From Hirudinaria manillensis (Eukaryota; Annelida; Clitellata; Hirudinida; Hirudinidae): DNA of 64,000 nt. The number at the start of each line of letters is the position of its first letter. Positions within the stretch are counted from its first letter, which is position 1. The DNA lies in the NCBI GenBank assembly GCA_034509925.1, contig CM067537.1:2122001-2186000 (forward strand), read 5' to 3'. The notes under the pieces are model-generated. The model saw nothing but the letters and a program-made list of their open reading frames with translations, was not told the origin of the DNA and searched no databases. Of the stretch, positions 10,053 to 41,368 are shown in pieces. A program made the translations under genes and the position numbers.

Positions 10053-12206
10053 TCACTTCTGACGAGGGGGGCCTGACATTAAATTTCAATTTGTTAATAA
10101 TTTTAATAATTTAATAATTTGTCTTAATAAGGTAACATCTCGTGTATATATACATATATATACAAAAATACTTAAAAAAAAGTACACTTCAGGAACCGGA
10201 AAATTAATCGACCAACCATAAAGATATTGTATGCCTCTTATGTCATCGTTTCCAATTGTCGTTCCTGGATGGTAGTTCGAAAACATGATGGCGTTCCAGT
10301 CTTCTGAGTGACCCAGTCCCAATGTGTGACCCATTTCATGTGTTGCAACCTTTTCAAGATTGATGCCTGTCAATTAGAATATATGTGAATTTGTGTTATA
10401 TTTGAAAAAGAACTCCCAATAATCTGACAAATATGACTAGATGAGAAAAGAAATATTCTTGGTCCAAGTAGTTAAGAAATTATAATTGTTAATAGAATCA
10501 TCGAGGGATATTTTAATCAAAATCATTTTTTAAACTATTGCAAACTGACCTTTATCCCTATGTCCGAACCATTCCTTGTCATCGTTAAAGTATATAGTTC
10601 CAGGTTCCGGGTAAGGACCGAAAGCGGGCGTGGGCATAGAAGCTTTAGCGAGTTCTTCTTCCGAGAAAACTTGGACACCCCGGTAATAACTTCTTAAAAA
10701 GGCCACGTCCAAGTCGATCCTTGAGCCATCAGATTCAGGAGAATCTATGTACACGTCGGCATACTGTTCCCATTCCTTTTTTTTGTTCATTACATTTCAA
10801 AGATGAAAAGATGATATGGATATAAATTTGTTTAAAAAAGTGCTTAAATAAAATATAATATTATTATGTTATTGTGATATTTTTTACGATTAAAATGCCG
10901 CAGTTCTTTAAGTATGAATATCTTACCTTAAATCCCTTGTCAATAGCAGCAGCAACTTCTTCCGCACTATAAAAGCTCGACTTTGATGGAAAGTTATGTA
11001 TTTTGTACGATACACGATTTGAGTAACGCTTTATGTCTGTCAGAAATTACTCATTTAAGACTTTCTTTCAACATCAAAAATTTTAATTAGCCAATCTAAT
11101 TTTAAGCGTGAAAATAAATAAATAAAGAACATCAAACAAGTTAAGCAAGTAGCTTAAAATCCAAAACTAACAATATGGATCGAATCTCTTTTGTAGTCTA
11201 TCACCTCCTGGTACTATGTCAGGGAGTGAACACCTTGGGGTGTTCATAATTGCCAAAGTTTCTTTGTCCAATTCGCCTGTAAATTGTGAATTTAAGGAAT
11301 TGTATAATTTAATAATTATATAACTATATTTAATAATTTAATAATTATATAACTATATTTAATAATTTAATAATTATAAAATTATATATTAATTATATAT
11401 AATTGCCTTTGCATTTATCCATGAATAACAATTTGAACCTTGACGATTTGCATCATTTGATTCAAAATGTCGTTTAATAATCAATCAGAATAGTTTAATT
11501 AAGCCGCCACCCCAAAAACGGCGTATTAAATATATAATCAATAATAATAATAATAATAATAATATATTAATTACCAAAATGATCATATTATCATATTATT
11601 ATATATTTTACTAATACCTATACTGTAATTATTGTGGTATTATAATTGTTATAACTACATGTATGAACACTACAGTATATTAATTACATAATTATTTTTT
11701 TATATTATTTATATTATATTTTATTATATATATTAAATATATTATATATATTAAAGATATTATATATTTTATTATATATTTATTTTATATTATTTATTTA
11801 TTTATTTTATTTTTAATTGTTAACGATTATTATCAAACCTGTTACGTTCAAGTTGAAAAATCTTTGCATTCTTTTTAAACCCTCCCCCATTTCGTTACCT
11901 TGTCGACTGTTTTTAGAAATACCGGGATTTAAATACCCATACATCTTGAGATACGTCTAAAAAGTTTTGTTTAATGAATTTATTATTTATTAATTAATTA
12001 ATTAAAGATTGTATCAATAAAACTAATCTCACAGCAGCTAAACCTTTGTCGTCTAATTTTTCGTTCAGAGTTTCCTTAGTTCCACTTTCCACAATTTCAT
12101 CATCGGCTCCCATTTCCTTGGATCCAGTCTTGATCAGAGGAGCACCAAACGTCTGCTCAGAAAGAACCCCCAAAATACAAAAGAAGACAATTCTTCTGCC
12201 AACCAT
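10053..12206 (-). CDS. MMP-A: minimal secreted matrix metalloproteinase with degenerate structural-metal loop
   Basis: Seven exons (5' to 3'): 12033..12206, 11839..11956, 11172..11276, 10927..11036, 10550..10775, 10217..10366 and 10053..10072; 300 aa. Signal peptide at residues 1-21, then an acidic spacer, an MMP prodomain ([17 protein letters not shown]), cysteine switch PRCSLPD, a dibasic LQKR|F site, and catalytic zinc motif HEMGHTLGLGHS followed by the Met-turn AIMFSNYHPG. Matrixins cleave extracellular matrix and other secreted substrates. Unlike its neighbours, exon 5 lacks the HGD...AHAFF loop that binds structural zinc and calcium in MMPs; the region reads YYRGVQVFSEEELAKASMP instead. 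The Pro after the Met-turn is also missing. No hemopexin domain follows. The last exon (tail PPRQK) is short and inferred by analogy with the paralogues; reading through the exon 6 donor would instead add a hydrophobic tail. The acceptor of exon 5 sits in a purine-rich tract. Confidence 0.83.
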
Positions 12207-12303
12207 TGTAGATGTATCGAGTATTTTTCGTTTAAAAGTAAACTTTTACTTTCAAAACTCGAAAGTTCATTAAAAGTCTGACACCAGGCATCGAGTTGTA
12301 GAC

Positions 12304-12311
12304 TTTTATAA
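12304..12311 (-). promoter_or_regulatory. TATA box of MMP-A
   Basis: TTATAAAA on the minus strand, about 100 bp upstream of the MMP-A start codon. Equivalent boxes stand before all five MMP genes. Confidence 0.6.
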
Positions 12312-38327: not shown

Positions 38328-41300
38328 TTACAACAAGCTCTTCAAAGGAAAAAAAGAGTCGTAATCCGGAGATCCATTTCCAGAGCCAATAAGCCGAGGT
38401 GTCCCTGAAAAATAATTATGTACATAAATTATTTAATGAGGCATTTAATTATTCATAAAAGTGAAGCTTAACTTAAATAACAATACTAATAAATGTAAAA
38501 AAAATATAATAAAAGTTTAATAATTTAAAGCAAAGAAGGGATTTATTTTTAAATCAGAAAAAGGAAATTTACGAAGTATTATTGAAATATATTGTATTGA
38601 TAATAGTAATACGTGACAATGTGGTAAATACGAAGCTCTTGCAATAGCATTAAATTTAAAAAAGCTTAAAAGAAGATTTAACAAATGAATCCTTCGATTC
38701 TAAGGACTTTAAGAAATAATTTCAGATTGCACATTAATAATGATATTTTATCGTAACAAATTCTTCTGAGTTTTAGAGTTACCATAGAGATATTGGATGC
38801 CTCTGACTTCATCGTCAGCCAAATCGAAATTCTTGTAATGAAAGTCCGGGTACATTATGGCCGAGAAGTCAGATGAGTGACCCAACCCAATTGCGTGGCC
38901 GACTTCGTGAGCCGTGACTTGCCTCAGGTTTTCACCTAAAAATATTGACTTATTTTTTCCAATATCTTGCTAATTAGTTGAAAATGCAGTTTCTGTTCGA
39001 GTTAATCTCATTGGAAATTCATCAATTACAATTACACAAACGTACCAGATAAGCGCGTACTAGTTACCGTGCACTAAATGGCGTGTTATACAATCAAACA
39101 ATTACATACTATCGCATTTTGGTCGTAAAACTCATAAAGAACAAATATACTGTTAGATCCCTGGATACAGATAATTATAGAATAATTAAATATTGTATTT
39201 ATAATTATATTGCTAATTAATTAATTTAATAATTAATTAATGTTCAGGGTACTATTCAGGGTCTTTGGTCATGAACCTCGACAGAGCGAGAGTAAGAGAA
39301 ACAGCAGATTCCAAGACTTAGACAATTAAGCATTGTACATCTTCCAAGCCATCCGAACACTTTCAATAAACCTGACCTTCCGTAATTAGTTTGAGGACCC
39401 CGGGTTATTACAATACAAATGTACTGGTCAAGCAGTATAACTTTGTTATACAATTATACAGTTACTTGATACGTACCTTCGTATTTTGACCACGTGTAGA
39501 CATCGTTCAAGTGAATTCCTCCATCATTCGGGTAAAAAGCGTGCGCAAGGGTATTGCTGCCCGGGTGGAAATCATCGTTGTCGCCATGGTAACCCTTGTA
39601 GAAGACCATCTTCATGTCGGCACGGTTGCTCGTTGTTCTGGTCATGAATATATTGGCGTATTTCGTCCATATCTGGTCAGCAAAAGAAGAAATAAACAAC
39701 GAACATTAACAATTTTGAATAAATTGAATTGATTAATTAATTGCTTAATTTAAAATTAAAATTAGAATTAACGGATGACCTGGAACCCTTCATCTATGGC
39801 GCTATCTATTTCCATCCTGTTATTGAACCGCGTCGTTTTCGAAGGATAGTTGAAAACTTTGTAGGTCAAGCGGTTCCATGGCCATTTCCCTGGAAATAAT
39901 TGGCCAATTTTTTAAGGCAAAAGTTTGAACAAGTTTTCTCGTCGAAAAAAAACGAGAATTGTTCAAATACATTTGTAAAAATATCCTAATAATATAGATC
40001 CATGAATAAATGAAAAGTTAAATGTCCGATTAATAGTTTTGAATATATTATGAAATTACAAATTGTAATTGTTACGTACCTGTAAATTGCACGGTAATTG
40101 TAATCGTATGATAATATTGTGTAATCGTTTCATTGTAGAATAAATTCATTTACATTTATGTTATATTTTATTCTTATTACATGAACAGACATTGAATGAT
40201 AATAGTTTGGAAAAGTTATTTACTAGTTTGTTATTAACCATAAGTCTTTCGTATTTCTTAATATTTATCAACGTAAATGATTATCTTAATAATGATAATA
40301 ACCTGATTAATAGTAATAAATTAATAATAATAATTTTTGTAATAATAATAATAATAATTTTTGTAAAAACAATAAAATATAAAGTAGTTACTGGAAATAA
40401 AACAAAACCAGCTCTAACCATTGACTGAAAAGCGTTTCTGTCGACCATTTGATCCTGGAATGACATCAGGAAGTGGACATCTTTTCGAGTTCATCACAGC
40501 CAAGGTTTCGTTGTCCAATTCACCTGTGAATTAATTCGTCGTTTTGCATTTTAAGTATAAATTCATTTTAAGATAGGTAGGTTTATAAATCATTCTCCGG
40601 CAAATCAGCAATAGTAGAGGTGGTAGTAGCAATAATGATATTAATAAATGTCTAAACATTTTATGGTCCCAGGTTGATCCCTGTCTGGGGACCTAAAATA
40701 TTAGGAGAGGTCTTTAGGATGTCGGCTTTTGTTGATTGGTGCAGGGCTCAATAAATATTTTGAAAATAATTGTCTAAAAATTTTAGTATTAGCGACGTAT
40801 GATATCCAAATTAGCGAATCGTGGTGGTCCCAGTAATCTTCCGAAAGTAGTAGCAGAATCTATTCAGAGAGTAGAATGCTAGGCGATATAACAGACACTG
40901 ATGATTGCTTTGAATGCCCAATGTTGACGAAACAAACCTGTCACGTTCAAGTTGAAAAACTTCTGCATCCATTTTAAGCTTTCCTTGAATTCGTCTCTGT
41001 CGCTGTTACTGTTTTTCGAAATTCCAGGTCTAAAGTAGCCGTATTTTTGTAGGTATTCCTGGAAAATTTTTTTAACAGAATAGAATCCAATAGGACCATG
41101 TTTAAAAGATTAAATATAAGCAAGTAAAGTATTTGATAATTATTATTAATCATTGAAATTGTTAAAATAACTCAGTTATTATAATTGTTATTTTCCTTAC
41201 GGCAGCTCCATCTTTATCCGTGATTCCACCAAATGGAACTTCTTTAGTTGTATCCTGATCCGTAGAACCTTCTGATTTTGGCGTCACGTGGTCAGTCTTG

Positions 41301-41368
41301 GTCAGAGGGGCACACAGCGTCTGCCTCACGAGAACCGCCAAGAAACAAAACCCTAAATAGTTTCTCAT
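38328..41368 (-). CDS. MMP-E: minimal secreted matrix metalloproteinase, paralogue of MMP-D
   Basis: Seven exons: 41201..41368, 40938..41058, 40419..40523, 39780..39889, 39477..39672, 38783..38935 and 38328..38404; 309 aa. Signal peptide and spacer are identical to MMP-D. Cysteine switch KRCPLPD, furin-type RQKR|F, structural loop [11 protein letters not shown] / TLAHAFYP / IHLND, active site [12 protein letters not shown], Met-turn [12 protein letters not shown]. The last exon adds [18 protein letters not shown] plus six residues, a tail unlike those of B and C. Compared with MMP-D, the zinc-helix is unchanged but the loop around the structural metals and the segment after the Met-turn (the S1' wall in MMPs) differ strongly. 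An in-frame non-ATG extension upstream of 41368 is ignored; the ATG chosen matches MMP-D and starts the signal peptide. Confidence 0.9.
40664..40770 (+). mobile_element. SINE-like insertion in MMP-E intron 2, with target-site duplication
   Basis: 107 bp absent from the otherwise aligned MMP-D intron. It is flanked by a duplicated TGTCTAAA(C/A)ATTTTA (40649-40663 and 40771-40785). The 5' end contains CAGGTTGATCCCTGTCTGGG, close to a tRNA-type B box (GGTTCGANNCC) followed by a TGGGG stretch as in tRNA-derived SINEs. The 3' end is CAATAAATATTTTG. No A box is visible, so it is probably 5'-truncated. Confidence 0.7.

Follow-up and report, generated by a model that had tools for sequence, protein, structure and literature searches.

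The window analyzed here is a stretch of 64,000 nucleotides (C12:2122001-2186000) from the 148.4-Mb genome of Hirudinaria manillensis, assembled in 23 contigs. Spliced alignment places in it five complete genes of matrixins, that is, matrix metalloproteinases (MMPs) of the M10 family. They all lie on the minus strand and span window positions 10053 (the stop of the first gene) to 41368 (the start of the last), and are named A to E from low to high window coordinate. Their models come from spliced protein-to-DNA alignment, except for the last exon, which encodes the tail and was placed by eye from splice signals. As a first-pass annotation of the bare sequence had proposed, all five share seven coding exons with identical intron phases (0,1,1,0,1,1), and each has GT-AG introns, an ATG and a terminal stop. 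The predicted proteins have 300, 318, 318, 288, and 309 residues from A to E. Taken with the splice signals, open frames and Pfam scores, the shared exon grid places these genes far beyond what chance would produce. TATA-like boxes were seen by eye within 160 bases upstream of the start codon in the five genes, the chance expectation being an estimated 0.4 or so per gene at this AT content.

Gene A occupies 10053-12206 (exons 12206-12033, 11956-11839, 11276-11172, 11036-10927, 10775-10550, 10366-10217, and 10072-10053), and its active site, HEMGHTLGLGH, reads from 10340 downwards. Gene B follows at 14860-18027 (exons 18027-17857, 17552-17432, 16644-16537, 16280-16171, 15870-15672, 15363-15208, and 14951-14860; active site from 15337 downwards), and gene C at 22352-25849 (exons 25849-25673, 25427-25307, 24412-24308, 23832-23723, 23432-23240, 22837-22682, and 22446-22352; active site from 22811). 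Gene D is found at 32419-35268 (exons 35268-35101, 34955-34835, 34542-34438, 33930-33821, 33713-33518, 32974-32819, and 32429-32419; active site from 32948) and gene E at 38328-41368 (exons 41368-41201, 41058-40938, 40523-40419, 39889-39780, 39672-39477, 38935-38783, and 38404-38328; active site from 38909). The D and E proteins are 88% identical, and the two genes belong to a recent duplication unit, alignable through the introns and both near flanks, whose D copy covers 32096-35648 (limits approximate) and whose E copy covers about 38 to 41.8 kb, both on the minus strand. Intron 5 of D holds a repeat of about 290 bases (about 33168-33461) that is also present in intron 5 of E and is therefore older than the duplication; elsewhere in the genome it gave at least 46 matching rows at roughly 37 places, among the best 40 of 1309 candidates scored.

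All five proteins present the same order of elements: a hydrophobic N-terminus, an acidic spacer, a PG_binding_1 prodomain, a basic motif and the Matrixin domain. Pfam searches (E up to 1) recovered PF01471 (E from 8e-10 to 1e-11) followed by PF00413 (E from 6e-27 to 3e-47) in each of them, in line with the cysteine-switch prodomain and matrixin active site of the first-pass annotation. The HExxHxxGxxH signature and the Met-turn are likewise kept in all five. The signal peptide and acidic spacer it described also have counterparts in the five proteins, the leader being a probable one, judged by eye. The cysteine switch reads PRCSLPD in A, B, and C and KRCPLPD in D and E, and the basic motif that follows it is RQKR in B, D, and E, KQKR in C, and LQKR in A. 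Furin-type convertases activate MMP-11, MMP-28 and the membrane-type MMPs at this same position; therefore, judging from the motif, the A-E zymogens are probably activated within the secretory pathway, at a furin-type site. Among solved structures, A and C both match prodomain-bearing MMP-1 best (1su3_A; E of 2e-29 for A and 3e-49 for C), while matrilysin matches C at 3e-49, level with MMP-1, and A at 3e-23, behind the stromelysins.

After LYG, the proteins carry tails of 5 (A), 29 (B), 30 (C), 2 (D), and 24 (E) residues. The short tails expected from the first reading are thus present, at 2-30 residues, although their exon was placed by eye and the D and E tails are less certain. The B and C tails are mutually related and Thr-rich, that of B being also aromatic and that of C Trp-rich. 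The tail of D is short because the reading frame used by E runs, by eye, into a stop codon in D; were exon 6 of D left unspliced, the protein would end LYGNSKT, likewise with no hemopexin domain.

Indeed, the same Pfam searches detect no Hemopexin domain in any of the five proteins, as had been claimed. Across the whole genome, Pfam Hemopexin gave seven matches, which fall into four M10 loci (two on C13, one on C7, and C2:8910k), and none on C12. A genome-specific hidden Markov model (HMM), built from these seven repeats as seeds, served to search 8734 open frames of the window and of 17 further stretches. It recovered repeats at three non-seed loci of C2 (8916k, E 1e-9; 8927k, E 4e-5; 8939k, E 6e-5) and weak matches at C1:879k (E 0.004 and 0.06) and C6 (E 0.03). 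Divergent repeats are therefore detectable with this model, yet it shows none on C12: no hit reached significance anywhere in the window (best E 0.99, at 62987-63061), and the best E on C12 was about 1, in stretches reaching some 3 kb past the 1856k, 1994k, 2418k, and 2578k genes. Distant, overlooked hemopexin exons were accordingly rejected as an explanation, both the whole-genome Pfam search and, in the stretches searched with it, the genome-specific model finding none on C12.

The array belongs to a larger set of genes, which the first-pass annotation had not noted, just as it had not noted the basic motif or the lost metal ligands described below. Genome-wide, 40 M10 matches were grouped by us into at least 25 loci, a lower bound, distributed over C1 (3), C2 (4), C6 (1), C7 (1), C8 (1), C13 (2), and C12 (13). 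The C12 loci lie between 1.856 and 2.590 Mb and comprise 12 genes and one fragment, all hemopexin-less: the five window genes, 1856k, 1994k, 2418k, 2578k, 2581k, 2585k, 2589k and the 2545k fragment. The 1856k and 1994k genes have a prodomain and comparable exon phases. The fragment (C12:2545455-2546103, plus strand) is a broken, partial D/E-type copy. It runs from the end of intron 5 to exon 7, matches D there with 95% identity, and lies about 390 kb from the window array on the opposite strand. A second tandem array, at C12:2578910-2590427, contains four matrixin genes (2578k, 2581k, 2585k, and 2589k) of about 200 residues. In these four and in 2418k, a leader exon is spliced straight to the catalytic exons, and the five genes, read to the first stop, encode 198-202 residues. 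In the two of them submitted to Pfam, Matrixin was seen and PG_binding_1 was not. Of the 25 loci, 17 gave a prodomain with an HMM built from 13 genes of this genome. Thirteen of these 17 had supplied its seeds; the four recovered non-seed loci, which serve as its control, are C1:11504k (near-identical to a seed), C2:8907k, C6, and C13:7572k. The other eight of the 25 loci, where the model found no prodomain, are the 2545k fragment, C1:879k, C2:8928k, 2418k and the four genes of the second array. Within the four-gene array, the ratio of nonsynonymous to synonymous divergence (dN/dS) is 0.66-0.91 in five pairs with dS near 0.2, and 2581k and 2585k are almost identical. On C2, the M10 gene at 8928116-8928870 has weak hemopexin repeats downstream and no prodomain in the 7 kb searched; a close paralogue at C2:8940k, adjoining this 8928k gene, has a prodomain.

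The genes of C12 also differ in their metal sites. On an alignment with MMP-1, we followed seven ligands, which we take to be, in MMP-1 numbering, those of the structural zinc (H168, D170, H183, H196) and of calcium (D175, D198, E201). C6 and C1:879k were too divergent for this alignment and 2545k is a fragment, so that 22 leech rows are compared, all of which keep the catalytic His and Glu. B and C retain the seven ligands in a canonical loop, D and E keep the four zinc ligands and have lost D175, D198, and E201, and A keeps none of the seven, the loop being hard to align there. Counts of His between RIDLD and the active-site exon give one in A, near the end (GHRDKG), three in B, C, and D, and four in E, in a slightly shorter stretch. 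Beyond the window, D175 is the sole ligand kept by 2418k, and the four-gene array has lost D170, D175, D198, and E201. In contrast, the ten aligned leech genes outside C12 keep all seven, except for a C at position 170 in two of them. The joint loss of D198 and E201 is thus seen in 8 of 12 aligned C12 genes versus none of 10 elsewhere, although these are genes of shared descent and not independent cases. Structural zinc and calcium ligands are usual in M10A matrixins without being strictly defining.

The phylogeny of prodomain and catalytic domain together was reconstructed with 16 rows, of which 14 are leech genes and two are human (MMP-1 and MMP-7); the 2545k fragment, the five prodomain-less C12 genes, C2_8909k, C2_8928k, C7, C1_879k, and C6, whose prodomain models are missing or untidy, were omitted. 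The five window genes form one clade (100/99) with the topology C,(B,(A,(D,E))), in which the union of A and D/E is supported at 95/93. They thus share a common ancestor and, with their different metal loops and tails, correspond to the tandem expansion of minimal MMPs with loop and tail changes that the first-pass annotation had envisaged. MMP-7 groups with MMP-1 (91/87), apart from the five, in a tree with only two human rows. With the catalytic domain alone, a 22-row tree (without A, C8, C1_879k, and C6) recovers B-E at 90/91, and no branch in it separates the two human rows from all others. The five prodomain-less C12 genes are a clade in both catalytic-domain trees, at 100/100 with 22 rows and 93/69 with 26. 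By the approximately unbiased (AU) test, a single clade of C12 genes (11 rows, A omitted; p 0.31) and a clade of the five window genes with 1856k and 1994k (p 0.37, 16-row tree) are each neither shown nor rejected.

Taken together, these results make it likely, as far as gene models can tell, that the locus holds five paralogous matrixins (M10A) in tandem, secreted as zymogens, inhibited by a prodomain, released by a convertase and ending in a short tail in place of hemopexin. We infer their secretion, convertase activation, activity and substrates as follows. The prodomain cysteine would cover the catalytic zinc and keep the enzyme autoinhibited until a furin-like convertase cut the basic site, which would free the active enzyme before or at secretion. 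With the catalytic domain ending in a short tail instead of a hinge and hemopexin domain, the enzymes would cut accessible, non-triple-helical substrates, as matrilysins do, and not native fibrillar collagen. After duplication, the prodomain would have been the more constrained part, while the metal loops, the S1-prime loop and the tail diverged; stability and substrate range thus probably vary from copy to copy. Some observations weigh against parts of this proposal. An ideal furin site has an arginine at P4, which is missing from A and C, and the lost structural metal ligands of A could mean decay. In addition, the catalytic-domain tree with 26 rows is poorly resolved and places C outside the other four window genes. 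The tree of MMPs from the same genome, suggested earlier as a check, unites the five when the prodomain is included and does not hold them together on the catalytic domain with 26 rows.

The divergence between copies bears on how they evolved. The older pairs of window genes show dN/dS of 0.15-0.26 in the six of nine with computable dS, the other three being saturated. In D/E, the youngest pair, there are 43 nonsynonymous and 11 synonymous differences, and the overall dN/dS is about 1.0. These differences are unevenly distributed: in exons 4-6, 37 of 370 nonsynonymous sites differ, compared with 66 of 1502 aligned positions in introns 3-6 (Fisher, 6e-5), while in exons 1-3, coding for the prodomain, 5 of 309 sites do. 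Many of the changes affect two loops, the metal loop and the one that follows the Met-turn, the latter corresponding to the S1-prime loop of other MMPs. This pattern gives a hint, from one pair only, of diversifying selection on the mature D/E enzyme. Several aspects of the same comparison speak against it. With all six introns as the reference, the excess becomes weaker (37/370 vs. 116/1936, p 0.005). Divergence reaches 9-16% in introns 1-2, and the synonymous sites of exons 5-6 (5.8 differences in 68 sites, a small number) have also changed about twice as much as introns 4-6. Taken alone, the comparison of nonsynonymous with synonymous counts in catalytic versus prodomain exons does not reach significance (p 0.08). 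Moreover, gene conversion seems to occur in the array, as B and C share 92% of the bases of exon 2 (synonymous difference 0.29) and 52-80% of those of other exons (0.39-0.89).

An alternative is that D, E, and A are drifting under relaxed constraint after duplication, their strong amino-acid divergence and missing metal ligands being signs of early decay, and that A may be inactive. The overall D/E ratio near 1.0, the metal ligands missing from A and the divergence of introns 1-2, as large as that of the catalytic exons, would all fit such a process. Nevertheless, the copies are not broken, in agreement with the first reading, since frames, splice sites and catalytic residues are intact in the five models. 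Moreover, the D/E prodomain exons are strongly conserved and the catalytic exons exceed introns 3-6, whereas drift alone would not go above the neutral rate. We consider relaxed constraint rather unlikely. A mosaic of conversion tracts, rather than selection, could also lie behind the uneven D/E divergence, and the conversion-like B/C exon 2, the more divergent introns 1-2 and the synonymous differences in exons 5-6 would be compatible with it. However, introns 4, 5, and 6, which flank and separate exons 5 and 6, each differ by about 4%; conversion tracts would thus need to follow exon borders. This explanation seems to us rather improbable.

Regarding the biological role, the first-pass annotation had considered collagen digestion an obvious one if the organism were an Osedax-like bone-eating worm. 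The DNA comes instead from a blood-feeding leech, and the 63 Antistasin matches in the genome (150 of 162 candidates scored), together with one weak, partial Hirudin match, fit this origin. Digestion of bone collagen consequently loses its basis. A feeding role for A-E, by tissue spreading, cleavage of fibrinogen or platelet matrix, or digestion of the meal, can be put forward tentatively, and use on bite, clot or meal rather than in remodelling of the animal's own tissue is a guess on our part. A study of Hirudo saliva names M12, M13, and M28 proteases, while M10, MMP and matrix metallo are absent from its main text (PMC7191736), which speaks against a major salivary role. This absence is also what would be expected of house-keeping MMPs working in development, nerve repair, reproduction or turnover of the gut epithelium, their duplication being gene-dosage drift, as is the purifying selection among the older pairs. 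In contrast, hemopexin-less, prodomain-less and metal-ligand-losing genes cluster on one chromosome and the catalytic exons of D/E change fast; neither fits house-keeping easily, and neither proves a feeding role. House-keeping is a serious candidate, if one we do not quite favor. For the saliva of the medicinal leech, a table lists a collagen-cleaving activity, a 'collagenase' of about 50 kDa, the passage concerned naming no gene (PMC7277884). The window proteins would have an estimated 32-36 kDa before processing, and no identity with it is claimed.

The window locus thus belongs to a more extensive group of structurally reduced MMPs that a single leech chromosome carries. A bolder and rather doubtful idea is that C12 carries a venom-like matrixin arsenal, formed by stepwise loss of parts with diversifying selection on substrate-facing loops. 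Under such a scenario, hemopexin would have been lost first, then the calcium site (D/E) and then the structural zinc site (A, and perhaps independently 2418k), while the sister array would also have shed the whole autoinhibitory prodomain, leaving enzymes of about 200 residues without built-in latency.

Other features of the window and genome were recorded. A perfect ATAAT pentamer repeat of 48 copies lies at 13507-13747, and a tandem repeat with a 142-base unit (3.9 copies, 99% alike) at 26742-27295, upstream of gene C. Rfam (gathering scores) and tRNA scans of the window gave no matches. At 51677-54112 (minus strand), a single-exon open frame of 811 codons encodes the exocyst subunit Sec15/EXOC6, in a stretch of 48% GC amid DNA of about 30-35% GC; elsewhere, Sec15 gave five weak, scattered matches on C8, and the frame might be an intact retrogene. 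An open frame with Gfo/Idh/MocA oxidoreductase domains is found at 2856-3626 (plus strand). C23 is a mitogenome of 15,581 bases whose COX1 is open under the invertebrate mitochondrial code. A COX1 copy with an equal score lies inside a chromosome-scale contig (C9:3026446-3027786), either as a recent mitochondrial insertion or as an assembly artefact.

MMPs are usually seen as multi-domain enzymes in which the calcium and structural zinc sites are fixed and the prodomain is essential for latency. The gene family described here is itself ordinary; what is new are the eroded metal sites and the prodomain-less sister array. A literature search on leech MMPs returned no study of a leech M10 array among the matches listed, which is no proof of absence in print. 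In searches by term, 'matrix metallo' and 'MMP' were not found in one leech genome paper (PMC10671345), nor 'matrix metallo' and 'metallopr' in another (PMC10087013). One leech chromosome with natural variants lacking each part would allow direct tests of the purpose of each part, and these variants might help to trace the matrix-degrading activity described for leech saliva to its gene.

Among known enzymes, the matrilysins MMP-7 and MMP-26 resemble the window genes in combining a leader, a cysteine-switch prodomain and a catalytic domain with no hemopexin. The leech genes differ from them by a basic convertase-type site and extra tails, the activation of MMP-7 being furin-independent. The likeness to MMP-7 is one of architecture, and orthology is not claimed; our 16-row tree sets MMP-7 with MMP-1. 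In MMP-11, MMP-28, and MMP-23, too, the prodomain is followed by a basic motif that ends in KR and precedes the catalytic domain, but the first two have a hemopexin domain and MMP-23 other C-terminal domains.

Within annelids, and by comparison of descriptions only, the MMP-Os1 and MMP-Os2 groups of Osedax frankpressi are likewise a lineage-specific MMP expansion, in a different annelid group. This worm is reported to have 63 MMPs, which with two exceptions are higher in root tissue than in the rest of the body, and 37.5% of the MMP-Os1 members are said to carry hemopexin (PMC10192322), so that the remaining members are apparently without it, as are the five leech enzymes of the window.

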